IMG/VR virus record: IMGVR_UViG_3300042561_002062
Coordinates: 1 to 64,000 of that record
Length of the DNA stretch: 64,000 nucleotides
Source: a virus
Strand: one strand, 5' to 3'
Shown here: piece after piece, positions 8,108-27,095 of the stretch
Layout: every line of letters starts with the position of its first letter
Position numbering within the stretch: position 1 is the first letter of the stretch
The notes under the pieces: generated by a model
What the model saw: only the letters and a program-made list of their open reading frames with translations
Told to the model about the DNA's origin: nothing
Database searches by the model: none
Program-made: the position numbers and the translations under genes

Positions 8108-9196
8108 CTAATCTCTTGATCTATATACAGGACTTGTTCTCGAAGGTGTATATGATGGTGTGTAGGTTCTAGGAGTTGAAGGCGTATAAGTTCTCGGTGT
8201 GTAGGTTCTAGGAGTTGAAGGGGTGTAGGTTCTTGGTGTATAAGTTCTCGGTGTCGAGGGTGTATATGATGGCGTATAAGACCTAGGTGTCGATGGAGTA
8301 TAAGAAGGCGTATATGTTCTTGGTGTTGATGGTGTATAAGACCTGGGTGTCGATGGAGTATATCTTCTTGGTGTAGATGGTGTATAAGAAGGCGTATAAG
8401 TTCTTGGAGTTCGTGGTGATGATGTAGTAGGTGCCTCTCTATGTGTTGGTCTAGACGTATATTCTCTTGATATTCTATTAGTAGCCGTATTTCTTGATTC
8501 TCTTTCTGTAGATCTAGAATAGCTTAAATTTCTATTAGTGTTTGTAGTAGTGGATGATCCTCTTCCAAAAAAACTTCGACGAGATGAAGACTCTGCTCTC
8601 CTTGGTGAGTTACCTTCCAAGGATCTACGGTATTGATACAGATTACGGCTAGATCCGAAAGTTGTTCTAGGACCTTGTCTATAAATAGAATTTTGACGAT
8701 AGATCGGGTTGTAGGCCCATCTCCAATCTCGATAGTAGGGGCCACAGAAATTTGGATATCCCCACCAGCCACCTGACCAACCCCACCAAGGGTTCGAATA
8801 GTAGTTCCAGTGCCAGGGATTAGACCAGCCGAAACTCCACGGATTATTGAAGTTCCAAAAATAATTACCTCTACCGTATCTAAAAAGAAAAGGATCCCAA
8901 TAGTAACCTAGACCAAAGTTCCAGTTATAGTAAAAGGGAAAATAATTATTTGTATAGATGTTTCTTACTCCTAGACCGACACCATCAGAAATACCATCTC
9001 TATAACCAAGAGAGTAGTTATCTGGTGTAGCTATTAAATTATTAGAAACTTGGACACTTTCTCTACTACCATCTTGATAATTACGATAAAGATCATCATG
9101 GTAACCATTAGTTCTCGCACTATCATAGTTTTTAAATGTGCAAGATGTAGTAAGAGTAAGAGAAAATAATAATATAAAAGATCCAAAATGTTTCAT
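8108..9196 (-). CDS. Repeat-rich lipoprotein
   Basis: A 362-residue exported lipoprotein. The N-terminus has a type II signal peptide with lipobox LTTSC (Cys about 19). Residues about 80-160 are rich in Trp, Tyr, Asn and Gly (NPWWGWSGGWWGYP). The remainder is Ser/Arg-rich and ends in about 15 copies of YTPS/TPR-type repeats that would be extended. A late-type box AATATATA lies at 9213-9220. Composition suggests a surface-displayed or envelope-bound protein made late in infection; the repeats make copy-number variation likely. No enzymatic domain seen. Confidence 0.75.
   Translation of the reverse strand: MKHFGSFILLFSLTLTTSCTFKNYDSARTNGYHDDLYRNYQDGSRESVQVSNNLIATPDNYSLGYRDGISDGVGLGVRNIYTNNYFPFYYNWNFGLGYYWDPFLFRYGRGNYFWNFNNPWSFGWSNPWHWNYYSNPWWGWSGGWWGYPNFCGPYYRDWRWAYNPIYRQNSIYRQGPRTTFGSSRNLYQYRRSLEGNSPRRAESSSRRSFFGRGSSTTTNTNRNLSYSRSTERESRNTATNRISREYTSRPTHREAPTTSSPRTPRTYTPSYTPSTPRRYTPSTPRSYTPSTPRTYTPSYTPSTPRSYTPSYTPSTPRTYTPRTYTPSTPRTYTPRTYTPSTPRTYTPSYTPSRTSPVYRSRD
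8140..8420 (-). repeat. Tandem repeats encoding YTPSTPR/TYTPR units
   Basis: About 280 bp of imperfect tandem repeats inside the lipoprotein gene, with units of about 21-33 bp (on the plus strand recurring GGTGTATAAGTTCTTGGTGT and close variants). The unit order is irregular, as expected from slippage and recombination. Confidence 0.85.
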
Positions 9197-9233: not shown

Positions 9234-10868
9234 TCATAAATTTAACTTTATAGTAGTAAAGGGATAGTTTCTAGCTAGATAAAACTTCTGTCGTTCTATA
9301 AAGTGACGATAAAGTATGTTATTCATTTTAGTACCATCAAATACATCAACTAGATCGAAAATAGTTGCTACTTTTTTCTGTTGATGTTTTCTAAGCGCAC
9401 GACCGATAGATTGTATAATGATTTGTTCGGATTTGAATGAATCAGCAAAAACTACATTAAAAATAGCAGTGATAGACACCCCAGTTGAGAGTGTTCCGAA
9501 AGAAGCAACTAAAATTTTTACCTTATCATTTGTTATTTCCATTTGTTTTTTGATCTCTTCTCGCCTTTTACCACCAACTTCACCATCGATATAGAAAAAT
9601 TCTTTATCTGGTAATTCTTTTGATAACTTCTCAAATATTCTTGTTCCATAATCAATATTATGAAAAAGAACGAGTGTATTATCTTGGCATTTATCAACTA
9701 GTTTTTTGATAAAGTCTAGACGCTTTTCTGAAGCTTGCATAGTATCTTTTTCTATCTGAAAAGCATCTCGACCAGCTCCTAACTTTTTGATTTCGTGAAG
9801 TCGTGTATTCAGTTCTGGATCCTGATGATTTAAGATAACACCTTTGATCTGCATTTGTGTGATAGCTCCTCTCTTTATAAGCTCATCGGCTTCGATTTGA
9901 GTAACTCTTGGACCTAAAACAGATTGTATAGTAAGAATCTCTAAACTATCATCCGAGGGAAATGTTCCAGATACACCAAACCTGTTATAGGCGTGACCGA
10001 AAGTTTTTTTAAGTATTGAAGTTAGTGTTTGGGCTTTGGTCATGTGAGCTTCATCGACTGCTACGGTATGAAACTGTGTGAAAAAACTTTTGGGCCATTT
10101 ATCAAGTGATTGATAAGTTCCGATGTAGATATTTGGTTGATCAACACCTTGCCATCTTCTAGGCCTATCGGACATGATCTCTTCCATTTTAATTTTAGCC
10201 GGAGAATAATCAGGTTCAAGTTCCTTGATAGGATCAATATTCCCACTACGAAAATCACAACGAGTTTCCCAGTTAGTTAGGTAGTTAAAACCATAGTTAT
10301 ACTCCATAATATTTTCATAAAACTGAGTTACCAGAGTTATCGTTGGAACAATAATCAGAAACTTTGCATCAGGGTTTATATTTTTCAAGATATAGAAAAT
10401 AATAATCGAAAGCACGAGAGATTTACCGCCAGAGGTAGCTATCTCAGCCATACAATACCTGTTCTTTAAGACTTTGAAAGCTGTTGCTACTTGATAATCG
10501 TAAGGTTGAAAATCGATCCATTGCTCATCTTTTGTTTTGGTCTGGTGATTTTTGAAGAACTCTTTACAGAAGTTTTCTACACTCTCTAGAGTAACATCAC
10601 GATTAAGTGGAAAATCTTCTTTATTCTCGATACCAAAACCAGTTCCGACCTCTTTTAGAGCTTTGAGGCATTCTTTCCAAAGACCTAGATTAACTTTCCC
10701 ATTATCGAAGTAGGATTGGTCTCCTCTCCAGATCCCCATTTTATAGGCAGGCATATACTGGTAACCTTTAACTTTTCTTGTTAGCCAAAGATTTAACTGG
10801 TGATACTCTGTTCTAGTAGAATCAGAAACTATCAATTTTTCTGAAGCCTTGTCGTAACGAAATTTCAA
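9234..10868 (-). CDS. uvsW: UvsW-like superfamily 2 DNA helicase
   Basis: T4 UvsW-type helicase, which unwinds R-loops and branched DNA and helps convert origin-dependent to recombination-dependent replication. It has 544 residues. An N-terminal region resembles T4 UvsW residues around its YRFNPRFRYGNW motif (here YQYMPAYKMGIW, about 36-47). Helicase motifs follow: Q-motif-like FQPYDYQ (120-126), Walker A ATSGGKS (144-150), DEAH (272-275), VSGTF (motif III) and QSIGRALRK (motif VI). The start is TTG at 10868, needed to keep the UvsW-like N-terminus; no upstream ATG is available. It is expressed divergently from the small Lys-rich gene. Confidence 0.93.
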   Translation of the reverse strand: MKFRYDKASEKLIVSDSTRTEYHQLNLWLTRKVKGYQYMPAYKMGIWRGDQSYFDNGKVNLGLWKECLKALKEVGTGFGIENKEDFPLNRDVTLESVENFCKEFFKNHQTKTKDEQWIDFQPYDYQVATAFKVLKNRYCMAEIATSGGKSLVLSIIIFYILKNINPDAKFLIIVPTITLVTQFYENIMEYNYGFNYLTNWETRCDFRSGNIDPIKELEPDYSPAKIKMEEIMSDRPRRWQGVDQPNIYIGTYQSLDKWPKSFFTQFHTVAVDEAHMTKAQTLTSILKKTFGHAYNRFGVSGTFPSDDSLEILTIQSVLGPRVTQIEADELIKRGAITQMQIKGVILNHQDPELNTRLHEIKKLGAGRDAFQIEKDTMQASEKRLDFIKKLVDKCQDNTLVLFHNIDYGTRIFEKLSKELPDKEFFYIDGEVGGKRREEIKKQMEITNDKVKILVASFGTLSTGVSITAIFNVVFADSFKSEQIIIQSIGRALRKHQQKKVATIFDLVDVFDGTKMNNILYRHFIERQKFYLARNYPFTTIKLNL

Positions 10869-11743: not shown

Positions 11744-12679
11744 ATGAATATAAATAAAAAGTACCTCATAACAGGATCTGATGGATTAGTGGGTTCTGCT
11801 TTGAAAAGATTATTAGGACAAGGACATATTTTTCACGAAAAAAAAGAAATAGATCTATTGAATAGAGAAGAAACAAAAGAATATTTTCGATATCACTGCG
11901 AGAATAATGGAGTAAATGCTGTTATACACTGCGCCGCAAAAGTTGGAGGTGTTCAAGCCAACATGAACAACAACAAAGATTTTTTTTTACAAAATTTTAT
12001 TATAAACAACAATGTGGTAGAATCTCTCATAGAAAATGAAGTTCCTTTTTTTGTAAATCTTCTTTCGACTTGTATTTTTCCAGATAAAAATATTCTTTAT
12101 CCATTAACATCGGACCAAATCAATATGGGTGATCCTCATCCTTCTAACCACGGATATGCATTCGCAAAGAGACTTTCTGGTGATTTAACCAAAATGATAA
12201 GAAAAATTTATGGACACAACTGGATCTCAGTGGTTCCAACGAATGTTTATGGTGAATTCGACAATTTCAACTTAGAGAACGGTCACTTGGTACCCGCTAT
12301 AATCCATAGGTCTTTTTTATCCAAAACAAGTTCACAACCTATGATTTTGTGGGGGGATGGTAGCCCTCTCAGACAACTCATTTATTCGGAAGATTTAGCT
12401 AGATTGATAATCTGGGCTCTTGAAAATTGGAATGTAGACAAACCTTTTATGGCTGTAAACCCAAAAGAACATAGTGTTTTAGAAATAGCAACAATTATTT
12501 GCGAAAAAATGGAAATATTATCTAAAGATCTCATTCTAGACCCAAATAAACCAACAGGACAATTTAAGAAAACAGCATCCACCGATGCACCCACAGATTT
12601 CAAATTCACAGATTTGCACTTAGGGATAGAAAAAACTATAACTTGGTTTAAAAAAAATTATCCCAACATTAGATCATGA
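11744..12679 (+). CDS. GDP-L-fucose/GDP-L-colitose synthase-like SDR
   Basis: Extended short-chain dehydrogenase of the Fcl (GDP-fucose synthase) family, which epimerises and reduces GDP-4-keto-6-deoxysugars; ColC of GDP-L-colitose synthesis belongs to the same family. Motifs: NAD(P)-binding TGSDGLVGSALK at the N-terminus, HCAAKVGGVQANMNN, LLSTCIFP containing the active-site Ser, the YxxxK pair in YAFAKR, and the VPTNVYGEFDNFNLENGH substrate segment. Length 311 fits. It overlaps the ColD-like gene by 4 bp and is followed by gmd. With those two partners the ColC role is favoured over simple fucose synthesis; this choice is inference. Confidence 0.85.
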   Translation: MNINKKYLITGSDGLVGSALKRLLGQGHIFHEKKEIDLLNREETKEYFRYHCENNGVNAVIHCAAKVGGVQANMNNNKDFFLQNFIINNNVVESLIENEVPFFVNLLSTCIFPDKNILYPLTSDQINMGDPHPSNHGYAFAKRLSGDLTKMIRKIYGHNWISVVPTNVYGEFDNFNLENGHLVPAIIHRSFLSKTSSQPMILWGDGSPLRQLIYSEDLARLIIWALENWNVDKPFMAVNPKEHSVLEIATIICEKMEILSKDLILDPNKPTGQFKKTASTDAPTDFKFTDLHLGIEKTITWFKKNYPNIRS

Positions 12680-13830
12680 AAAAAATTACCTTAATTAAAG
12701 ATACAATAGATGAGCATGATATCGGAAATTTAATAAACTGGTTACAAAAAAATCCTAGATTGACCAAAGGTGATTATACTATTCAATTCGAACAAGAATG
12801 GTCAAAATGGTTAGGTGTAAAATTTTCAGTTTTCGTCAATTCAGGGTCATCAGCAAATTTAGCATCAATATATTCACTTTATTTATCTGGTAAATTAAAA
12901 AACAAAAAAGTGGTAATTCCTGCTGTGTCGTGGGCTACTACAGTTTCACCAATAATTCAACTAGGCCTGGATCCAATAATGTGTGATTGTGATAGAGAAA
13001 ATTTGGGTTTGGATATAAATTCACTACAAAAAATAATAGAATTTGAAGATCCTGGTGCTATAATACTAGTTCATGTTCTTGGAGTACCCAATAAAATGGA
13101 TGAAATAATAGATATATGTAAAAAAAATAATATTTTATTGGTAGAAGATACCTGCGAATCTATTGGTTCAATGTATAGAGGCAAAAAATTAGGAAATTTC
13201 GGGGATATTTCAACTTTTTCATTTTATTTTGGTCACCATATGTCAACAATAGAAGGTGGTATGATATCTACCGATAATGAGGAATTATACCATATTTTAT
13301 TATCTATAAGATCGCATGGATGGGATAGAGATTTACCAAAATCAAAACAAAAAGATCTCAGAAAAAAATATTCTATTGATGATTTTAGTGCACTTTATAC
13401 CTTTTATTACCCTGGTTTTAATATAAGATCTACGGATCTACAAGCTTTTATAGGCCTGGAACAACTAAAAAAAATCAACGATATAATAGATAAAAGAAAT
13501 AAAAATTATGAATTTTATCACAGTCAAATAAAAAATAATTTTTGGAAAATTGAACCGCCGAATGATTCTTTTATAAGCAACTTTGCCTATCCAATAATTT
13601 CACCAAGCAGATCTAATTTAATAAAAGAGTTAGAAAAAAACAATATTGAATGTAGACCACTCATTTGTGGTTCTATGTCAAAACAACCATTCTGGTATGA
13701 AAGATATGGTCAAGGTTCTTTCCCAAATAGTAATCTTGTGCATGAATTAGGAATTTACGTGCCAAACAACCATCAACTAGAAAGTGAGGAAATAAAATTA
13801 ATAGTAGAAGTAATTAATAAATCTATATGA
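12676..13830 (+). CDS. ColD-like GDP-4-keto-6-deoxymannose 3-dehydratase
   Basis: PLP-dependent sugar 3-dehydrase of the DegT fold. The Schiff-base lysine of aminotransferases is replaced by histidine (H187 in FSFYFGHHMSTIEGG), the hallmark of ColD, which uses glutamate to form PMP and removes the C3 hydroxyl from GDP-4-keto-6-deoxymannose. Further ColD-like stretches are IPAVSWATTVSPIIQLGL, LLVEDTCES, ISTDNEELYHILLSIRSHGW and IECRPLICG. Length 384 matches ColD (about 388). It sits between a Fcl/ColC-like gene and gmd with 4-bp overlaps on both sides, completing a GDP-colitose gene set. Biochemical activity is inferred. Confidence 0.88.
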   Translation: MKKITLIKDTIDEHDIGNLINWLQKNPRLTKGDYTIQFEQEWSKWLGVKFSVFVNSGSSANLASIYSLYLSGKLKNKKVVIPAVSWATTVSPIIQLGLDPIMCDCDRENLGLDINSLQKIIEFEDPGAIILVHVLGVPNKMDEIIDICKKNNILLVEDTCESIGSMYRGKKLGNFGDISTFSFYFGHHMSTIEGGMISTDNEELYHILLSIRSHGWDRDLPKSKQKDLRKKYSIDDFSALYTFYYPGFNIRSTDLQAFIGLEQLKKINDIIDKRNKNYEFYHSQIKNNFWKIEPPNDSFISNFAYPIISPSRSNLIKELEKNNIECRPLICGSMSKQPFWYERYGQGSFPNSNLVHELGIYVPNNHQLESEEIKLIVEVINKSI

Positions 13831-14819
13831 AAAAAGTATTAATAACTGGAATAAACGGCCAAGATGGATCTTATCTGGCGGAGTTTTTATTAGAAAAAAA
13901 TTATAAGGTCTTTGGAACTTTAAAACGTAATTCGGTATCAGAAAACCAAACATACAGAATAGAAAAAATACACGATAGTGTTAATCTCGATTATGCCGAT
14001 ATGACCGATCTATCCTCGTTGATAAGTGTTATAAAAAAAGTAAAACCAGACGAAATATATAATCTTGCGGCTCAGTCACATGTTCGTATATCATTCGACC
14101 AGCCAATTTATACAGCTAACGTAACGGCCATAGGTACTCTGAATTTGTTAGAAGCAGTGAAAATTATAGATACAAACATCAAAGTTTATCAAGCCTCTTC
14201 TTCTGAAATGTTTGGAAATAATATTGATCCTGATGGTTTTCAAAGAGAAACAACACCTATGAGTCCGGTCTCACCCTATGGATGTTCCAAAGTTTTTAGC
14301 TACAATATATGTAGAAATTATAGATATTCCTATGGTTTATTTGTATCTAATGGTATATTATTTAATCACGAATCACCCAGAAGAGGAACAAATTTCGTGA
14401 CTAACAAGGTATGTAAAGAAGCAGTAAGAATTAGTCTTGGATTATCTGAAAGACTAAAACTAGGTAATCTCGAGGCCACAAGAGATTGGGGACACGCAAA
14501 AGATTATGTTAAGGCTATGTGGCTTATTTTACAATTGAAAAAGCCAGATGATTTTGTGTGCTCAACAGGTTTATCACATTCAGTTAGAGATTTGTGTGAA
14601 TATGTTTTTTCTAAATTGAAATTAGATTACAAAAACCACGTAGAAATTGATCAAAAATTCTTGAGGCCAGAAGAACTGAACCATCTGAAAGGCGATAGTA
14701 GTAAACTCATTTCAGCTACCGGTTGGAAACCCGAATATAATTTTGAGAGTATGTTGGATGAAATGATTGAATATTGGTTAGGTTTTTACAATAAACAAAC
14801 AGATAAGAATATAGAATAA
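13827..14819 (+). CDS. gmd: GDP-mannose 4,6-dehydratase
   Basis: Converts GDP-D-mannose to GDP-4-keto-6-deoxy-D-mannose, the common precursor of fucose, colitose, rhamnose and perosamine. Family motifs are GINGQDGSYLAEFL (NADP binding and Gmd signature), DEIYNLAAQSHV, ASSSEMFGN, the active-site SPYGCSK, NGILFNHESPRRG and TRDWGHAKDYVKAMW. The 330-residue length is slightly short of the usual 340-370. It overlaps the ColD-like gene by 4 bp and lies 40 bp before the GT11 transferase, so the operon order is colC-like, colD-like, gmd, transferase. No phosphomannomutase or guanylyltransferase gene is seen nearby, so GDP-mannose must come from elsewhere. Confidence 0.95.
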   Translation: MKKVLITGINGQDGSYLAEFLLEKNYKVFGTLKRNSVSENQTYRIEKIHDSVNLDYADMTDLSSLISVIKKVKPDEIYNLAAQSHVRISFDQPIYTANVTAIGTLNLLEAVKIIDTNIKVYQASSSEMFGNNIDPDGFQRETTPMSPVSPYGCSKVFSYNICRNYRYSYGLFVSNGILFNHESPRRGTNFVTNKVCKEAVRISLGLSERLKLGNLEATRDWGHAKDYVKAMWLILQLKKPDDFVCSTGLSHSVRDLCEYVFSKLKLDYKNHVEIDQKFLRPEELNHLKGDSSKLISATGWKPEYNFESMLDEMIEYWLGFYNKQTDKNIE

Positions 14820-14859
14820 TTTAAGTTCTTTAAATAGATATTAAAAATAAATTATCAAA

Positions 14860-15303
14860 ATGTCATACATAACAAAAACAAATTTAACTCTGAATGCTTT
14901 TTTCGGTTCGCAGATTACACAGTTTGCTGGTCTATATGCTGTTTCTAGACATTTAGGAATAGAAATAAAAATTTTTCGAGAATATATAAATACCATCTGG
15001 GACAATAAATGTTATCCTATTCAACTATTTAATGCCTTTGAATTAGATCATTATCTATGTTCAACCGAAGATGTCCAACCAATAGATAAAACTTATAATT
15101 TACAGAATACAATAAAAGATGATGATGTATTTAAATTGGATTCGAATTTTAATTGGGATATCCAGGGTTATTTTCATACATATCATTATTGGCATGAATA
15201 TAGGAATGATTTAATCAAAATATTGAATTTCAAAAAAGAAATTACAGAATTAGCAAAAAAAAAAATATCGAACTCATCAAAGGTAGTGATCAAATACCAA
15301 TAA
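14860..15303 (+). CDS. GT11 fucosyltransferase-like protein, N-terminal part (frameshifted)
   Basis: N-terminal half of a glycosyltransferase family 11 enzyme (alpha-1,2-fucosyltransferase type), with an opening TLNAFFGSQITQFAGLYAVS reminiscent of the family's N-terminal GNxxFQ region. The frame runs through an A11 tract (15255-15265) and stops at 15301-15303, just before the HVRRGDY donor-binding motif, which is in the -1 frame. A single -1 slip at the A tract, or one extra A, joins the two halves into a normal-length enzyme of about 280 residues. The gene may be phase-variable, expressed by slippage, or affected by a homopolymer sequencing error. Confidence 0.8.
   Translation: MSYITKTNLTLNAFFGSQITQFAGLYAVSRHLGIEIKIFREYINTIWDNKCYPIQLFNAFELDHYLCSTEDVQPIDKTYNLQNTIKDDDVFKLDSNFNWDIQGYFHTYHYWHEYRNDLIKILNFKKEITELAKKKISNSSKVVIKYQ
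15255..15265 (+). repeat. A11 homopolymer at the GT11 frameshift
   Basis: Eleven consecutive A residues inside the GT11 gene. They contain A_AAA_AAA-type slippery heptamers in the incoming frame, and the -1 frame is open directly downstream and encodes the conserved HVRRGDY motif. Confidence 0.9.
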
Positions 15304-15704
15304 TATCACTACACGTTCGTAGAGGTGATTACCTACAACTTTCATCTTTGAATTTATCACTCAACTATTTCAAAAAATCCATATCTATTTTTTCAACTTT
15401 GTTTGAAAAATTTAAAATTGTTGTTTTTTCAGATGATATATCCTGGTGTAAGGATAATATCATTAGTGAACATATATACTTTTCAGAAAATAATTCAAAT
15501 CATGTAGATATGTGTATGATGACTATGTGCGATCATAATATTATAGCAAATAGCAGTTTTAGTTTTTGGGGCGCGTATTTGAATCAACATCAAAATAAGA
15601 TTGTAATTTGTCCTAAAATGTATATTGGTCTAAGTGACCAAATTCATCAATTTATTAATTATAACTGGTATCTGAAAGAATGGATTTCTTTAGATATAAT
15701 CTGA
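15264..15704 (+). pseudogene. GT11 fucosyltransferase-like protein, C-terminal part (frameshifted)
   Basis: Continuation of the GT11 gene in the -1 frame. It reads NIELIKGSDQIPIISLHVRRGDY across 15264-15332 and on to TAA-flanked completion at 15704, including KIVVFSDDISWCK and NSSFSFWGAYLN, both typical of alpha-1,2-fucosyltransferase motifs. There is no good independent start codon before the HVRRGDY motif, so without frameshifting this half is probably not made. Annotated as a broken gene because the intact product requires a shift; it may equally be a functional phase-variable gene. By operon context the sugar transferred could be colitose rather than fucose. Confidence 0.75.
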
Positions 15705-15721: not shown

Positions 15722-16507
15722 CTATTTTTTCATAGAATGGTATACATTTTTTATACCTTGTTCTGTACCAACATATTCTAAAAGCATTTGAGGAACGCCA
15801 CAATACTTTTCTGCTACTCCATGTTGTTCAATTCTAATATTAACTTTGTGACTATCTAATTCATTAATTATATTTGCAATGTCTAATAAACTATACGATT
15901 TTTGATATGAACAATCTATTTCTTTTGGTGGATTTTCATTTTGAATATAATAATCAACCAATGAAACTAAATCTTTCATATAAAAGAAATCCATAAATTT
16001 ATCTTGGTGTATAATTATTTGCTCTTTATTTATGTATCGTTTTATATTTCCTTTAATAAATCGTGTATCTAACTCATTTTCATCAAACACAGCAAATATC
16101 CTAATATTGTAAAAATTTTCTTGCTCCAATATAGATTTAGCTATTACTCTTTTACTCAACCCATATGGAGATTCTGGTTGAGTTATTTCTGCACCCGAAC
16201 CAAAGTGGATTAATTTTCCAAATCTATCCCTACAATTGAGCAGGTTATAATACATTTGAAGGTTATTATCCATATCATTGGTAATATCCTCTTTAAGTCT
16301 ACTACCACCGCTTACAGCACAATGAATTACTACATCAAAATATTTGTGTTTTAGATATGAATCCAATACTTTAAAATGATTTAAATCAAAGTTATTTCTG
16401 GTTAGTGTGGTTATTTCATATGAATTTTTCAATGAATTATATAAACTTTTAGCTATATAACCATTACCACCTGTTATTAATACTTGTCGCTTATTTTCTA
16501 TTGGCAT
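15722..16507 (-). CDS. NAD(P)-dependent SDR epimerase/reductase
   Basis: Extended SDR of 261 residues. It has the Rossmann motif ITGGNGYIAKSLYNSL, then VVIHCAVSGGS, a Ser-containing LIHFGSGAE, and a catalytic YGLSK (YxxxK). It resembles sugar nucleotide 4-reductases and epimerases of O-antigen loci, and it is short, as in reductases such as RmlD- or RmD-like enzymes. It is last in the minus-strand sugar block. It could be the final 4-keto reductase of the second sugar pathway (with RmlB, the 25947 dehydrase and the TPP enzyme), but the substrate is unproven. Confidence 0.8.
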   Translation of the reverse strand: MPIENKRQVLITGGNGYIAKSLYNSLKNSYEITTLTRNNFDLNHFKVLDSYLKHKYFDVVIHCAVSGGSRLKEDITNDMDNNLQMYYNLLNCRDRFGKLIHFGSGAEITQPESPYGLSKRVIAKSILEQENFYNIRIFAVFDENELDTRFIKGNIKRYINKEQIIIHQDKFMDFFYMKDLVSLVDYYIQNENPPKEIDCSYQKSYSLLDIANIINELDSHKVNIRIEQHGVAEKYCGVPQMLLEYVGTEQGIKNVYHSMKK

Positions 16508-17388: not shown

Positions 17389-18429
17389 TCATAAAATAGT
17401 GTGATTAAACTTATTTGAAATTAAAAGAAATTCCAATAATATAGAATCTTCTATAGGTATACCATTAATCTTTCTATGTTCATATGACATTTTTTCTTTA
17501 TCACCTGCTATCATAACATCATTTGTTCCCACTTTTGGTAAATTCCTAATTTGAGTAGCCATATCTGAAAGATAACCTTTAAACCAATCAACAGATACAA
17601 ACTTAGAGATATCTAACGCCATAAAAAAGTGGCTTATATTTCTATCATATGTTATGGATAAGTCATAAAGGGGTGCAATCTGCTTACTCATTGGGCCCGT
17701 GGTCAGTCCTGAACATAATATTTCAATAAACATTCCTAGTCCAAATCCTTTATAGCCGCCAACACTATTGAGTGATACGGCTTGATGAGGATCTATAGTT
17801 GGTTGTCCATTATTATCATAGGCCCATTCTAATTTTAGGGGCTTATTTTGTCTTTTATAATTTTTAACTTTATTCCAAGGTATTGTAGAAGTTGCCATAT
17901 CTAAACAATAAGGATTTTCATCTCTCATTGGGGCTGAAAAAGCTATTGGATTAGTTCCAAAAAAAGTTTCTTTGCTACCATAAGCATTGACCAATGCTTC
18001 AGTATTAGTTAATGCCAACCCAATCATTTCATATCTTGCAGCAATATCAGTAAAGTACCAAGCTGCACCGAAATGTGTTGAGTTCTTTACACTAACAACC
18101 CCAATTCCAGTATGTTGTGCTAATTGAATTGCTTCTAACATAGCTTTTTTTCCAGCAAAATGTCCAAATGTATTTTTAGCATCTAGTATAGATACAGAAG
18201 GACTTTTTTGCTTTATTTCAATGTTAGAATTCTTGTTGAGCCTATTAAGATTTAATTCCTTATAATAGTGTGGAAATAAGTGAATACCATGAGAGTCAAC
18301 ACCTTTTAAAGAGGTTTCAATTAGCGATTCAGTTACTGTATTAGCAACTTCAGCCTCAACACCAGTTGATAACATACACTCATACATTACTGCTCTGAAT
18401 TTGTTAGAATCAATTAAAACCATTCTCAA
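17389..18429 (-). CDS. Ldh_2 (malate/L-lactate dehydrogenase) family oxidoreductase
   Basis: NAD(P)-dependent 2-hydroxyacid/2-keto acid oxidoreductase with the Ldh_2 fold (YlbC/DlgD relatives), not the classical LDH fold. Motifs: GVDSHGIHLFPHYYKE (catalytic His region), VKNSTHFGAAWYF, GTNPIAFSAP, MATSTIPWNKV and GGYKGFGLGMFIEIL. The length of 346 is normal. It overlaps the HAD gene by about 20 bp in a tightly coupled run DJ-1, cupin, HAD, Ldh_2. In this context it may reduce a keto acid or keto sugar used for glycan decoration; the pyruvate-using TPP enzyme nearby is suggestive but not proof. Confidence 0.88.
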   Translation of the reverse strand: MRMVLIDSNKFRAVMYECMLSTGVEAEVANTVTESLIETSLKGVDSHGIHLFPHYYKELNLNRLNKNSNIEIKQKSPSVSILDAKNTFGHFAGKKAMLEAIQLAQHTGIGVVSVKNSTHFGAAWYFTDIAARYEMIGLALTNTEALVNAYGSKETFFGTNPIAFSAPMRDENPYCLDMATSTIPWNKVKNYKRQNKPLKLEWAYDNNGQPTIDPHQAVSLNSVGGYKGFGLGMFIEILCSGLTTGPMSKQIAPLYDLSITYDRNISHFFMALDISKFVSVDWFKGYLSDMATQIRNLPKVGTNDVMIAGDKEKMSYEHRKINGIPIEDSILLEFLLISNKFNHTIL

Positions 18430-20031: not shown

Positions 20032-21783
20032 TTATTTGTATATTGGTATGATCATTTCCTTCTCATATATTTCTTTTGGCAAAAACGGAAACATATTTTC
20101 AAGAGGCTGGGATATTAGTTTTCCATCATCTGTTTGTAGTGTAGCAGAAGTTGGGTAAATTTCTTCATTAGGGGGGCATATTATTTCGCATAAATAATAT
20201 CCTTTATAATTGATAATTGTTTCTAGTTTTGCTTTTAGTTCATTTATATCGTTAATTCGAGTAAATGGAAATCCGTATGCATAAGCAATTTTTTCAGCAT
20301 CAGGGAAGGATATTCCTGAAGATGGGCTTTCTCCAGATAGTCTTTGATTAAAGAATTTAATTTGAGTATTTCTAATAGATAGATAACCCCCATTATTTAA
20401 TATAAACAATTTTATAGGTAACTTATTTTCAACAATAGTTTGTAATTCTTGGATATTAAATTGAAAGGAACCCTCCCCTGTAACACCAATAATAGTTGAG
20501 TTTGGATTAGCAAAGCATGCTCCTATGGCAGCTGGCAATGCAAACCCCATTTCTCCTTGAGCTGAGGGGATTATAAGTTTATTATTAATTAAAGATTGAG
20601 CTAATACATAGTAAGATGAACCAGCATCTGTTATCACAATTGAATCTTTAGATATTTCAGATAACTCTTTAGAAAAGGAATACATATTTAATTGGTTGAT
20701 ATCATCTCTATCAAAAACAGGCCACATATTTTTCCAATTAATACATTTACTTATCCACTCTTGATTATTATTTATATAATTCGAAGAGTCAGTTGCAAAA
20801 AAATTTGTCAAATCATCTTCAATTATTTGTTCAATTTTTACAGTTTCTTTAAGATGTTCATTTTTATCAATATCAACAACTACAATTTTAGCTTTTCGAC
20901 CGAATAAATGATATTGATAACCAGTTGCTGGTATGCTCAATGATGTTCCCAATCCTATAATAAGATCTGAGTTGGCTACAGCAAAATTTCCTGCTCTAGT
21001 ACCTTTTAAACCTATTCTGCCAACATATAGCGGGTGGTTTTCAGGGAGAAGATTAGTTCCTAGAAAAGTTACAGCTACTGGTATTTGGTGCTTCTCAACA
21101 AATTTTTTAAATGCTTGTTTGGTATTTGATAAGTTTATACCATTACCTGCTATAATAATAGGGCGTTTTGAATCATTTAAGTATCTCATAAGTACAGATA
21201 CAGATTTATTATCTATTATTATATCATCAGGAGTATAATGATGTAGATTATTTTCATCAATTAAAGTAGATTGTATATCTAGGGGGATATCAATCCAAAC
21301 AGGGCCTGGTCTGTTTGAAGTACATAAATGATATGCCTTTTCTAGCTCGTATGCTATATCCTCAGCACTTTCAATCATAACGGCATATTTGGTAATAGAT
21401 TCAACAATTTTAATTATATTTGCTTCTTGAACTCCTAATTTTCTTAAGGAAACTTTTTTTAAAAAAGTTGTATCTTTTTTATTAACTTGCCCAGATATAA
21501 ACATAACTTTATGACTATCTTGCCAAGCATCTAAAAGTCCGGTTATTGTATTTGTGCTTCCACACCCTGTTGTTGGGATTACTACAGAAACATCATTAGT
21601 AACTTTAGTATAACCAACTGCTGCCATAGCACATGCTTGTTCATGATGGCAGAATACAGGTTTAATATTACTTTGGGCAATAGCATCATTCAAAAACATA
21701 GCCCCACCTCCTGTTACTTCAAATACATGTTTAATATTTTTTTGTTCTAAAAATGATGCTACATAATCGGCCACTCTTACCAT
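20032..21783 (-). CDS. TPP-dependent acetolactate synthase-like enzyme
   Basis: A 583-residue thiamine-diphosphate enzyme of the acetohydroxyacid synthase family. The catalytic Glu is at about E48 (CHHEQACAMAA), the central domain has PIIIAGNGI, and the TPP/Mg motif is GEGSFQFNIQELQTIVENKL followed by NNGGYLSIRN. It overlaps the RmlB gene by 7 bp. Homologues in O-antigen loci include YerE-type enzymes that attach a two-carbon unit from pyruvate to a keto-deoxysugar; the RmlB and 3-dehydrase in the same block make a branched-chain sugar route conceivable. Other uses, such as simple acetolactate formation, cannot be excluded. Confidence 0.88.
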   Translation of the reverse strand: MVRVADYVASFLEQKNIKHVFEVTGGGAMFLNDAIAQSNIKPVFCHHEQACAMAAVGYTKVTNDVSVVIPTTGCGSTNTITGLLDAWQDSHKVMFISGQVNKKDTTFLKKVSLRKLGVQEANIIKIVESITKYAVMIESAEDIAYELEKAYHLCTSNRPGPVWIDIPLDIQSTLIDENNLHHYTPDDIIIDNKSVSVLMRYLNDSKRPIIIAGNGINLSNTKQAFKKFVEKHQIPVAVTFLGTNLLPENHPLYVGRIGLKGTRAGNFAVANSDLIIGLGTSLSIPATGYQYHLFGRKAKIVVVDIDKNEHLKETVKIEQIIEDDLTNFFATDSSNYINNNQEWISKCINWKNMWPVFDRDDINQLNMYSFSKELSEISKDSIVITDAGSSYYVLAQSLINNKLIIPSAQGEMGFALPAAIGACFANPNSTIIGVTGEGSFQFNIQELQTIVENKLPIKLFILNNGGYLSIRNTQIKFFNQRLSGESPSSGISFPDAEKIAYAYGFPFTRINDINELKAKLETIINYKGYYLCEIICPPNEEIYPTSATLQTDDGKLISQPLENMFPFLPKEIYEKEMIIPIYK

Positions 21784-22727
21784 ATAAACTTATTTTTATA
21801 ATAATCGACAATCTGTGGAAGTTCATTATCAAATTCTTTTTTTGGTTTCCATCCTAACTTTTGTAATTTAGAATCATCTAAAGCGTATCTAACATCTTGT
21901 CCTTGTCTTATATAAGAAAAATCAATATAATTATCCAACTCTTCTAAATTTTTATTGTCTAATATACAAATTTTTTTCACAGTTTCCAAATTATTTTGCT
22001 CAAATCCGCCACAAATATTATAAATTTCGTTTTTAACTCCTGCGTTTACAATTGTGATTATCGCATCAGCAGTATCTTGTGCGTGCAACCAATTTCGTAT
22101 TGGTGTCCCACCATTATGTAGTGGAACTTTTCTACCTAACTTTAGATATTTGCAAGTTTTTGGTATTAACTTTTCAACATACTGGCCAATACCGTAATTA
22201 TTTGTAGGCCTTACTATGATATATGGTAATCCATATGTTCTTCCCCACGCCATAATTAACATATCAGCGGCTGCCTTTGTAGCCGAGTATGGGTTTGATG
22301 GTTTTAATAAATCTGTTTCAATATGCTCACCCTTTTCAATATCACCATAAACTTCATCGGTACTAAAATGTAATAATGTTGGTTTACTTATATTTTCTCC
22401 TCTATGATTTTTAATTAGTTCTAACAAATTATGAACTCCATTTATATTGGAGTGAATAAAATCATCACTGTTTGCTACTGAATTACCGACATGAGTTTCT
22501 GCCGCGGTATTTATTAAATAATCACAATCGTATAAAAATTTCAAATCATTTATGTCACATTGAACAAATGAAAAATTTGGATATTTTTTAAATTGTGTTA
22601 ATAAATCTCTATTTGCTGCATAAGTTATTTTATCCACACCTTTAACATACCAACCCAAATCTAAACAAGTTTTAGTTACATATGAACCTATGAAACCTAG
22701 ACAACCCGTCACGTATACGATCCTCAT
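21777..22727 (-). CDS. rmlB: dTDP-glucose 4,6-dehydratase-like
   Basis: NAD-dependent sugar nucleotide 4,6-dehydratase. Motifs: VTGCLGFIGSYVTK, NTAAETHVGNSV, HFSTDEVYGDI (catalytic TDE), NPYSATKAAADML (YxxxK), RPTNNYGIGQYVEKLIP and PIRNWLHAQDTADAI. All are diagnostic of RmlB, so the substrate is probably dTDP-glucose. The start is taken at ATG 22727; a GTG at 22742 would add five residues. It overlaps the TPP enzyme gene. No RmlA, RmlC or RmlD partner is adjacent, so the 4-keto product is likely used by another branch, such as the 3-dehydrase at 25947. Confidence 0.92.
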   Translation of the reverse strand: MRIVYVTGCLGFIGSYVTKTCLDLGWYVKGVDKITYAANRDLLTQFKKYPNFSFVQCDINDLKFLYDCDYLINTAAETHVGNSVANSDDFIHSNINGVHNLLELIKNHRGENISKPTLLHFSTDEVYGDIEKGEHIETDLLKPSNPYSATKAAADMLIMAWGRTYGLPYIIVRPTNNYGIGQYVEKLIPKTCKYLKLGRKVPLHNGGTPIRNWLHAQDTADAIITIVNAGVKNEIYNICGGFEQNNLETVKKICILDNKNLEELDNYIDFSYIRQGQDVRYALDDSKLQKLGWKPKKEFDNELPQIVDYYKNKFIW

Positions 22728-22780
22728 ATTTATTCTATTCACGAAAATTATATAAGTTTTACATTTTGTATCGTATATTT

Positions 22781-23536
22781 TCAGTAATCATGATAATGGA
22801 TGTGTTTATCTATTTGTTCAAATTTTATTTGAGGATTCAACATCAAAGAATATCCGGAAACATTACTAGATGTGACAATTATCTCTTCACATCTAGATAG
22901 TGAAATAGCCTCTATCATAATTTCTTCTGCTAGTCCGTCGATATTTTCTAAATGTTTGTAGTGTATCGGATTTTCATCATCACTTCTATAAATATTTTCA
23001 TTTAACATTATTAGATCTCCATATTTTGATACAAATTCTTTTACTACTTTATTCTCATCGGTAATAAGTAAAATATTTTTATAATTATTTTCTTGAAGTT
23101 TATTATCAATTACTTTATAATAAAAATCGTTATCTAAAAATTCTCCGTGTAGATGATGATCTGTTCTTCTTACATGAACTCCTAGTGAATTTTCTCTAGA
23201 TATACATAACTCACTACATTTTTTACATACAGCATTGTCAAAATGACCATATTTTATTAATATTTTATTTAGTGTCTTGCATAATTCAATATTATGAATA
23301 AACTCATAGATATTCCCTACTTTCATAGTATCTATATTAATAATATCTTCTGGATTGTGGTTGTCTATGGGTTTTTGGTTGAAAAAAAATTTGTCGAAAA
23401 GATTTTTATTATCAGTTTGGTATAATATATTATTCCATTTTATGTAAAAATCAACTATTGAGTTATCTTCCAACCATTTAAGACAACCAACAATTATATT
23501 GAAACTGGAAAAATCCACATTCTCTATTTTGTTCAA
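22781..23536 (-). CDS. Fucosyltransferase-like protein (GT11/GT-B)
   Basis: A 251-residue protein with LGVHVRRTDHHLHGEF, the H-x-R-R-x-D donor-binding motif shared by GT11, GT23 and protein O-fucosyltransferases. It is followed by NILLITDENK and a C-terminal VTSSNVSGYSLML segment equivalent to the S-S-x-F/Y-S motif near the nucleotide. Probably transfers a deoxysugar from a GDP donor. The annotated start is TTG at 23536 because no in-frame ATG exists near the 5' end; it lies 14 bp after the previous gene. Donor identity is inferred from the gmd operon. Confidence 0.7.
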   Translation of the reverse strand: MNKIENVDFSSFNIIVGCLKWLEDNSIVDFYIKWNNILYQTDNKNLFDKFFFNQKPIDNHNPEDIINIDTMKVGNIYEFIHNIELCKTLNKILIKYGHFDNAVCKKCSELCISRENSLGVHVRRTDHHLHGEFLDNDFYYKVIDNKLQENNYKNILLITDENKVVKEFVSKYGDLIMLNENIYRSDDENPIHYKHLENIDGLAEEIMIEAISLSRCEEIIVTSSNVSGYSLMLNPQIKFEQIDKHIHYHDY

Positions 23537-24258: not shown

Positions 24259-25932
24259 TTATTTGATTAAATGCCTCAAATACTTATCAAAATATATATC
24301 ATTATTCCAATACCAAGACAATGCAGTATTGAAGTTATTTTCAATATACTCTTGTTTAGATCTGTAAAGATTATAGTCTAGACCTTTAATTATATCCAAT
24401 AATTCTTCCAGAGTTTCAAAAATAATTATTCCACGAATATCGAAAAATTCTTCTATATTTGGACAACCTTTGTATATGGGTATAGTTCCTGTGAGAAAAC
24501 AATCTAAAATTTTTTCTGTAAATAAGTTTTTGTGTGAACCGTTTTCTATAGCAATTGAAAATGAGTAATCCTTCAATCCATCTAATTTAGCTCTAACTTC
24601 ATTGTATCCAACACCGAATAAATCAACTTTCATATGGTTATCGGATAAAAAATTTACACAATTTACCCTAAATCTATGAAAATCAGTGTTTGATTTATTA
24701 CTAGTAATAAAAGATACTAATTTGTTTTTAGAATATAGTGAATAAAGATTTTCATCAGCTAGATTTGGCCACCCATCTACATAATGAACACAGTGATTAT
24801 AATACCAATGAATAGGCCACTCTGTTTTATGTACATTTTTGTTTAGAACTACTTCACCCCCTAAGTTCCTAAATTTTGCGTTTGGTAACTGGAGAAGACT
24901 TTCGTCATATGTCAATATCAAATCAAACTTTTTATAATTTTTCTTCACTAAATTATAAACTTCAAGTTGGTCAAATAGGTATGGTGGTTCGTGTATATCT
25001 GCAACTATTTTCCCTCTTTTGATGATTATTTCTCCATTGAGATATTTGAGTATGTTAGAATCTTCTAATACAGTTAGATCAAACTCACCATCAGAGAGAT
25101 TATATACATAAGAAAATTTTTTTGGAATACTATTAGCTTCTCTAAAAGTAAAGCTGTTAACTTGGGGAACTTTTTCCCCGGAAAAATCTTCTTTGTAGTG
25201 TTTTTTATTTCTGATCTCTAGTTCGTATACCATATTATCAGAAGTTTCTCTTTCTAGTGTTCTCTCATTTACATTTGGTAGTCGATTTAGCACATATGTG
25301 GGAAAATTAACAACACCTATCTTTTCTTTTTTACACATTTCTAAAAGTGGATAAACAATTGCTAAATCAATAGCGTGTGTGAACCATTTTCCGTTTTTTT
25401 TAGAAATCAGATCTACTAGGTTTAATTTCTTTATTAGAAATCCTCTTGACGTAAATAGATGACTGGCTCGCCAAACATCTCTTCTATACAATTTATATTC
25501 GTGAACAAAATCTGGATAGCATGTATTTTGAGGATGTCCCTCCTTCAGATCGTATGATTCATCCTGTATATAATATTTACCATATGTTAACCAATAATCA
25601 TTAAGATTGTAAAAATTATTTAAGTTTTCTAATACTTTTTCATCATAAAGCCAATCATCTCCACATACAGCCATATAGATATCATTATCATCTAAATATT
25701 CAAAAAAACTTAAAATTCCATAAGGATATGTATTTTCTGTTTTTTTTATAATCGTGAACTTAGGATTGTTACCCACTAAATTTTTTACTATTTCATAAGT
25801 ATTATCCGTAGATGCATCATCTAAATAATAAACATGGTAGTTCTGATAGGTCTGTGAAATTAAACTAGACAAATTATATTCAACCCAATCTTGATTGTTA
25901 TAGGATGGCACAAGTATTTTAAAAAAGTTCAT
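24259..25932 (-). CDS. Bifunctional GT2-GT10 glycosyltransferase fusion
   Basis: A 557-residue protein with two transferase modules. Residues 1-230 are a GT2 domain: FKILVPSYNNQDWVEYNLSS, YYLDDASTDNTYE and VCGDDWL. Residues about 270-550 look like GT10 (alpha-1,3/4-fucosyltransferase) with IAIENGSHKNLFTEKILDC and TGTIPIYKGCPNIEEFF, the E-N-x...T-E-K and P-I-x-x-G donor motif. The fusion suggests consecutive addition of two sugars, the second perhaps a fucose-like deoxysugar from GDP. I do not recall this domain pair as a common arrangement. Confidence 0.8.
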   Translation of the reverse strand: MNFFKILVPSYNNQDWVEYNLSSLISQTYQNYHVYYLDDASTDNTYEIVKNLVGNNPKFTIIKKTENTYPYGILSFFEYLDDNDIYMAVCGDDWLYDEKVLENLNNFYNLNDYWLTYGKYYIQDESYDLKEGHPQNTCYPDFVHEYKLYRRDVWRASHLFTSRGFLIKKLNLVDLISKKNGKWFTHAIDLAIVYPLLEMCKKEKIGVVNFPTYVLNRLPNVNERTLERETSDNMVYELEIRNKKHYKEDFSGEKVPQVNSFTFREANSIPKKFSYVYNLSDGEFDLTVLEDSNILKYLNGEIIIKRGKIVADIHEPPYLFDQLEVYNLVKKNYKKFDLILTYDESLLQLPNAKFRNLGGEVVLNKNVHKTEWPIHWYYNHCVHYVDGWPNLADENLYSLYSKNKLVSFITSNKSNTDFHRFRVNCVNFLSDNHMKVDLFGVGYNEVRAKLDGLKDYSFSIAIENGSHKNLFTEKILDCFLTGTIPIYKGCPNIEEFFDIRGIIIFETLEELLDIIKGLDYNLYRSKQEYIENNFNTALSWYWNNDIYFDKYLRHLIK

Positions 25933-25946
25933 TTCCTGTAAAATTT

Positions 25947-27095
25947 CTACTTAACAAAAAATTCTTTTATCTTATCACAAACATAATCTACATCTTCGGT
26001 TGTCATACCGTGATGTGCTCCCAATAAAAATCCATTTTTCATAATAGTATCTGAATTTTGGAATGGTTGTAAATATTCTCTATAGACTGGATGGCGGGTT
26101 ACATTCCCCGCAAAGGTTACTCTTGTTTGAATATTATTATCTTCTAAAAAGTGAAGCAACTCATATCTCTTTTCAGTTTGTAGCGGGATTGCTAACCAAT
26201 TTGGTTTAATACTATCATCCGGTAGCAATATTTCCTCTACATCTTTCAGATTTTCCAAATATCTTTCAATATTATCTCTTCTGATTTTTTCAAACTCACT
26301 AAACCTATCTAATTGAACAAGTCCAAATGCAGCATTCATTTCTGATGATTTCATATTATAACCTAATACACCGTATAAAAATTTATAATCGTATGGTATT
26401 CCATCAACATTATGATTGAATCTATCTGACATCTCTTCTGAGTTATCACCAATCCTGCCCCAATCTCTAAATTGTAAGCAAGTATTACGATGTTTTTCTT
26501 CATTAAACATCACCATACCACCTGATCCTCCGGCAGTAATAACGTGTGACGCATAAAAGCTTGTAGTAGCAATATCCGTTTCTGGTGTGTGGGTAACTGT
26601 ATCTGCTGAATCTTCAATTAAGATAATATCCTCTCTACCCATAGCAATTAAACCTTCTTTGATTTTTTTCCAATCAGGCTTATTACCAATTAAATTAGGT
26701 AACATCAGAACTTTAACATCATCGGTTATTACACCTAACACCTCATCTACATTTACTACATAAGTATTCAAATCAACATCTACAAATACTGGCACTAAAC
26801 CCAACTGGATTATTGGTGCAAGAGTTGTTGAAAAAGTACAAGCAGGTGTAACCACTTTAGTTCCTTTTGGAAGGAGTAAACTTGCCAAAGCAAGCAAACA
26901 TGCTGATGAGCCTGAGTTTACAAAAACACCATATTTTTTTCCAAAATGTTTTGAAATCCGTTGTTCAAATTCAATTGACTTTGGACCAAATCCTGCTAAC
27001 CAACCAGATCGTAGGCAATCAACTACTGCTTGAATTTCTTGTTCCCCATACGATTCAAATTTGTTGGGTGCATACCATACTTTTTTCCTATTCAT
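25947..27095 (-). CDS. RfbH-like PLP-dependent sugar 3-dehydrase without the Fe-S cysteines
   Basis: A 382-residue DegT-fold enzyme with H184 replacing the Schiff-base Lys (TTSFYASHVITAGGSGG), as in ColD and RfbH/E1 3-dehydrases. It shares with RfbH the FRDWGRIG and YDYKFLYGVLGYNMKSSEMNAAFG stretches, which in RfbH surround a Cys-rich [2Fe-2S] ligand segment. Those cysteines are absent here, so a ColD-like PMP-only mechanism is expected. N-terminal VNSGSSA and TPACTFSTT are the cofactor-phosphate loops. It probably removes the 3-hydroxyl of a 4-keto-6-deoxysugar made by RmlB. The substrate is inferred from gene neighbours. Confidence 0.85.
   Translation of the reverse strand: MNRKKVWYAPNKFESYGEQEIQAVVDCLRSGWLAGFGPKSIEFEQRISKHFGKKYGVFVNSGSSACLLALASLLLPKGTKVVTPACTFSTTLAPIIQLGLVPVFVDVDLNTYVVNVDEVLGVITDDVKVLMLPNLIGNKPDWKKIKEGLIAMGREDIILIEDSADTVTHTPETDIATTSFYASHVITAGGSGGMVMFNEEKHRNTCLQFRDWGRIGDNSEEMSDRFNHNVDGIPYDYKFLYGVLGYNMKSSEMNAAFGLVQLDRFSEFEKIRRDNIERYLENLKDVEEILLPDDSIKPNWLAIPLQTEKRYELLHFLEDNNIQTRVTFAGNVTRHPVYREYLQPFQNSDTIMKNGFLLGAHHGMTTEDVDYVCDKIKEFFVK

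Follow-up and report, generated by a model that had tools for sequence, protein, structure and literature searches.

A phage-encoded operon for Gmd, a ColD-type 3-dehydratase and an epimerase/reductase, with a proposed GDP-3,6-dideoxyhexose product

The operon and its proposed pathway

Colitose is a sugar found in a few O-antigens. Could a phage encode its own route to it? The locus that raises this question lies in the 64-kb window that opens a 149.5-kb IMG/VR record, and the sequence-only reading had described it as a GDP-colitose operon of three overlapping genes followed by a GT11 transferase gene. The source of the record is a large T4-like phage: phage core genes are present in the record, including a gp23-type capsid gene (major head protein), genes for an RNA ligase and NAMPT, an endolysin-like gene and a UvsW-type helicase gene at 9234-10868. 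The terminase model PF03237 gave zero matches. T4-type hydroxymethylcytosine glycosylation was considered and is unsupported, no thymidylate-synthase-family gene having been detected in the record, which may be incomplete. A lipoprotein-like ORF on the minus strand (8108-9196) carries a long TYTPS repeat tail, encoded by imperfect tandem DNA repeats.

All three genes of the operon are on the plus strand. The frames are intact, open exactly at 11744, 12676 and 13827 as had been described, and overlap their neighbours by 4 bp (12676-12679 and 13827-13830); colC and colD of E. coli O111 likewise overlap by 4 bp. The gene at 11744..12679 encodes an Fcl-type GDP-4-keto-6-deoxymannose 5-epimerase/4-reductase, that at 12676..13830 a ColD-type PLP/PMP-dependent GDP-4-keto-6-deoxy-mannose 3-dehydratase, and that at 13827..14819 Gmd, the GDP-mannose 4,6-dehydratase. 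The assignment of Gmd, also made in the sequence-only reading, was borne out by scores of 390 bits for Pfam GDP_Man_Dehyd and 392 bits for TIGR01472, the latter slightly below the model's 415-bit cut-off, and by 44% identity to E. coli Gmd. In a PDB search this protein matched 1n7g at 2e-98, whereas the GDP-heptose dehydratase 7us5 was matched far more weakly (9e-37); the protein is thus much closer to GDP-mannose dehydratases, and a GDP-heptose reading was rejected. A phage-encoded operon of Gmd, a ColD-type 3-dehydratase and an epimerase/reductase is well supported.

In the proposed pathway, Gmd would convert GDP-mannose into GDP-4-keto-6-deoxymannose. From this the 12676 enzyme would make GDP-4-keto-3,6-dideoxymannose by eliminating the hydroxyl at C3, with PMP renewed from glutamate and His187 serving as acid/base, and the 11744 enzyme would epimerise C5 and reduce C4 with NADPH, yielding GDP-L-colitose (3-deoxy-L-fucose). 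The GT11 enzyme, whose gene is frameshifted here, would transfer the sugar onto a glycan. No sugar nucleotidyltransferase (PF00483) was detected across the 149.5-kb record, implying that the pathway probably needs GDP-mannose from the host. We consider it probable (roughly 0.6) that host GDP-mannose is channelled by the operon into a GDP-3,6-dideoxyhexose, GDP-L-colitose being the likeliest product. Strong homology backs the reactions predicted for Gmd and the 12676 protein. The third step is proposed less firmly because Fcl-type enzymes normally yield GDP-L-fucose; the 11744 enzyme might accept the 3-deoxy substrate, in which case colitose would be the end product. The sugar might decorate the virion or the host envelope.

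The synthase, the glycan region and the GT11 gene

The 11744 protein scored 177 bits with NF047922, and its best PDB match was human GDP-L-fucose synthase (4e5y, 1e-63). It keeps the invariant catalytic set of Ser, Cys, Tyr-x3-Lys and His, as Ser108, Cys110, Tyr138, Lys142 and His181. It had been called ColC-like, and this part of the sequence-only reading did not survive: in a tree of 114 synthase rows, the protein fell into a 17-row, FX-type clade with human FX, while ColC of E. coli O111 belonged to a 20-row clade whose other synthases are mostly neighbours of E. coli-type ColDs. An AU test rejected a ColC clade that included the 11744 protein (p 5e-79), and identity was 28% to ColC and 28% to E. 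coli Fcl. A ColC identity is thereby ruled out and, since the protein lies outside the ColC clade, it should not carry the name ColC. The protein could make GDP-L-fucose only.

This bears on a rival view with two branches, in which Gmd and the Fcl-type enzyme would make GDP-L-fucose, and the product of the ColD-type enzyme would pass through another reductase to some other GDP-3,6-dideoxyhexose or to a branched sugar. The grouping of the synthase with human GDP-fucose synthase agrees with it, as do the phages in which Gmd and Fcl occur without an adjacent ColD, the RmlD-like SDR (15722-16507) and TPP enzyme (20032-21783) encoded in the window, and the GT10 and FUT8-like fucosyltransferase domains there. 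Against it, the 3-dehydratase gene overlaps both partner genes here and, in many phages and bacteria, an Fcl-type partner adjoins the 3-dehydratase even though its type is swapped. Among phages, the swap is between FX-type and bacterial-type synthases, the latter being present in ACG-2014f, S-CAM7, L006 and L008. That the partner is often still adjacent after such swaps suggests, but does not prove, that the 3-dehydratase and the Fcl-type enzyme work as a pair. Two separate branches are therefore a possible but unlikely arrangement, and a single route to a GDP-3,6-dideoxyhexose is preferred.

The operon adjoins a glycan region in which a second deoxysugar module is found together with GT2/GT10, FUT8-like and GT34-like genes, and because of this position a phage-directed glycan is likely. 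Several other genes of the window were recorded. An ORF on the minus strand (24259-25932) encodes a GT2 domain fused to a C-terminal GT10 fucosyltransferase domain, the FUT8 similarity (22781-23536) is weak, and a gene of the malate/L-lactate (ureidoglycolate, sulfolactate-like) dehydrogenase family lies within the glycan region (17389-18429, minus strand). Another DegT protein of the His type is encoded at 25947-27095 on the minus strand. Its closest match is E1 (4e-59), but the stretch that holds three or four Cys residues in E1 types has a single one in this protein; the TPP enzyme gene and a dTDP-glucose 4,6-dehydratase-like gene (21777-22742) are nearby, and this neighbourhood may be a second 3,6-dideoxy sugar module, for a branched sugar. 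Another amino-sugar module, consisting of a PseC/WecE-like Lys-type aminotransferase gene and then an FdtA-like gene, is found at 301-1906 on the plus strand.

The GT11 family includes alpha-1,2-fucosyltransferases and also holds colitosyltransferases. Its member here, at 14860..15704 (plus strand), was identified from Pfam Glyco_transf_11, the reading frames and intact relatives, and consists of two ORFs, 14860-15303 and 15348-15704, each covering only part of the family profile. The 3' part matched Glyco_transf_11 at 5e-21 and contains the HVRRGDY motif, downstream of the frameshift. The frame changes at a homopolymer of 11 A residues (15255..15265, plus strand), while in relatives the gene is a single ORF, mostly of 238-303 aa. 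Over 13,152 bases, the A run included, the sequence is 100% identical to that of another contig (L005, 142 kb), which makes a chance sequencing error confined to a single assembly unlikely. The gene may be a pseudogene, or the A run may vary in length or allow slippage. The GT11 gene noted earlier behind the operon thus has the expected family match and motif, but it is split at the A run and is not intact. This frameshift, occurring in two contigs, could be taken to mean that the operon is decaying cargo, brought in and non-functional in the source phage. We regard that as quite improbable, since the three upstream genes are intact and retain every catalytic residue, relatives carry intact sets, and the A run may be bypassed by slippage or differ in length among genomes.

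The ColD-type 3-dehydratase

The 12676 protein belongs to the DegT family. In a sequence alignment, His187, the first His of GHHMSTIEGG, aligned with His188 of E. coli ColD, a position anchored by the ColD mutant chains 3b8x (H188N), 2r0t (H188K) and 3gr9 (H188K/S187N); a His in place of the Schiff-base Lys had been read correctly from the sequence. ColD (2gms, 1e-71) came first in the PDB sequence search, ahead of E1 (1e-45) and perosamine synthase (1e-35). An AlphaFold2 model of the protein had a mean pLDDT of 96.8, and in a Foldseek search with it the top 12 chains were ColD, ahead of all others. ColD and the phage proteins share six residues (Trp86, Glu161, Thr191, Arg251, Pro328 and Asn364) that E1 and the Lys-type aminotransferases do not have. 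His occupied the Schiff-base position in 166/166 proteins with strong ColD-profile scores, while E1-type relatives, which retain a cysteine-rich stretch, scored lower. ColD renews its PMP by means of glutamate and has no Fe-S cluster, in contrast to E1 and SpnQ, both of which contain one (PMC8987622). The [2Fe-2S] cysteine cluster of E1 is absent from the aligned 12676 protein, which in this respect fits ColD rather than E1 or SpnQ.

In a tree of 187 proteins, the 12676 protein fell inside a 166-row ColD-like group. E. coli ColD was placed in a separate 21-row bacterial clade and the 12676 protein in a 100-row sister clade made up mostly of viral contigs; a constraint placing it among the relatives of E. 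coli ColD in that bacterial clade was weakly rejected by the AU test (p 0.038), and identity to E. coli O111 ColD was 34%. The name ColD given to it earlier thus holds for the enzyme type and not for the clade. Together these comparisons argue strongly for a 3-dehydratase of the ColD type. Because relatives of ColD can use GDP-heptoses as substrates (PMC10440746), the substrate is not fixed by family alone. A perosamine-type aminotransferase was ruled out by His187 and the tree, and an E1/CDP enzyme by the missing Fe-S cysteines and E1-specific residues. That the protein is nonetheless an E1-type dehydratase of CDP or dTDP sugars, or has regained transamination like perosamine synthase, is highly improbable: the DegT superfamily is common to all of these and the matching Pfam, NCBIfam and PHROG models are named for aminotransferases, RfbH or PseC (all NCBIfam matches lying below their curated cut-offs), but His replaces Lys, the Fe-S cysteines are absent, the ColD-specific residues are present, the tree sets the protein apart from the E1 clade, and the neighbours are GDP-sugar genes.

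Phage-borne E1/RfbH-type 3-dehydratases with Fe-S-type cysteines were seen separately in L006 (8106-9407) and L012 (5869-7164), the former immediately after a ColD-type gene and an Fcl gene.

Spread among phages and comparison with known systems

A homologue search for phage hits with trees, proposed in the sequence-only reading, was carried out and gave many viral 3-dehydratases in a largely viral clade. A profile scan of IMG/VR returned at least 583 candidate relatives, some of which are perhaps not His-type, and at least 120 stretches matched a strict pattern written at the DNA level for GHHM[ST]T[IV]EGG; a ColD-profile protein was encoded at all 79 of the 79 newly fetched loci with this motif. 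These profile and motif matches rule out a cassette unique to the source phage. ColD, Fcl and Gmd occurred together within the fetched flanks at 39/82 viral loci, with GT11 as well at 17/82. Where viral loci had enough flank, Fcl or Gmd lay directly beside the 3-dehydratase gene at 42/69 and all three were contiguous at 21/69, most often with a 4-bp overlap between contiguous genes; for bacterial loci the corresponding counts were 36/60 and 25/60.

In GenBank, the cultured Synechococcus phages ACG-2014f and S-CAM7 carry consecutive Gmd, Fcl, ColD and GT11 genes, whose entries bear the generic names epimerase, aminotransferase or hypothetical protein, and glycosyltransferase; in two records of S-CAM7 the 3-dehydratase is labelled CDP-4-keto-6-deoxy-D-glucose-3-dehydrase. 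The open literature, to which the search was confined, yielded no description of a colitose pathway in a phage, cyanophage or virus. The earlier remark that no phage pathway had been described agrees with this literature, but the genes had already been deposited, unrecognised, from cultured cyanophages. The enzymes are of known kinds; that phages combine them, and how widely, appears to have gone unrecognised. We give about even odds to the wider proposal that a colitose-type route to a GDP-3,6-dideoxyhexose, with a 3-dehydratase clade of its own that is mostly viral, is widespread and unrecognised among aquatic phages and serves to attach a rare terminal sugar to their virions or to the surface of infected cells. 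If it holds, viruses themselves, both cultured cyanophages and the sources of many environmental phage contigs, make rare terminal sugars, and receptor recognition, superinfection or virion surface chemistry could be altered. Phage database entries now misleadingly named "aminotransferase" or "CDP-sugar dehydrase" would also be corrected. ACG-2014f and S-CAM7 exist as sequenced isolates, which opens the idea to enzyme work and to sugar analysis of virions.

Among known systems, the T4-like cyanophages S-SCSM1, for which GDP-L-fucose genes have been published (PMC9602691), DSL-LC03 and S-SRM01 resemble the present phage in having Gmd, Fcl and fucosyltransferases. No ColD-type 3-dehydratase is among the S-SCSM1 genes named in that paper or in the DSL-LC03 and S-SRM01 stretches examined, so a 6-deoxy rather than a 3,6-dideoxy sugar is expected from them. 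The GDP-3,6-dideoxy-heptose pathway of C. jejuni HS:5 (PMC10440746) also uses a GDP-linked PLP C3-dehydratase followed by epimerisation and reduction; it differs in starting from a GDP-heptose and in having a separate epimerase and reductase. E. coli O55/O111 and Y. pseudotuberculosis make GDP-L-colitose by means of Gmd, ColD and ColC, and their pathway shares with the phage operon the three enzyme types, the gene overlap, the His at the Schiff-base position, the ColD-type active-site residues and a 3-dehydratase free of Fe-S; in contrast, the present genes are phage-borne, with a 3-dehydratase of a separate clade (34% identity), an FX-type synthase and a record without a detected sugar nucleotidyltransferase. 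Finally, gp223-226 of cyanophage ACG-2014f and gp232-229 of S-CAM7 form, as here, a contiguous set of Gmd, Fcl, a His-type 3-dehydratase and GT11; their 3-dehydratases are 36-37% identical to the one described here, their synthases are of the bacterial type, and their GT11 genes are intact.
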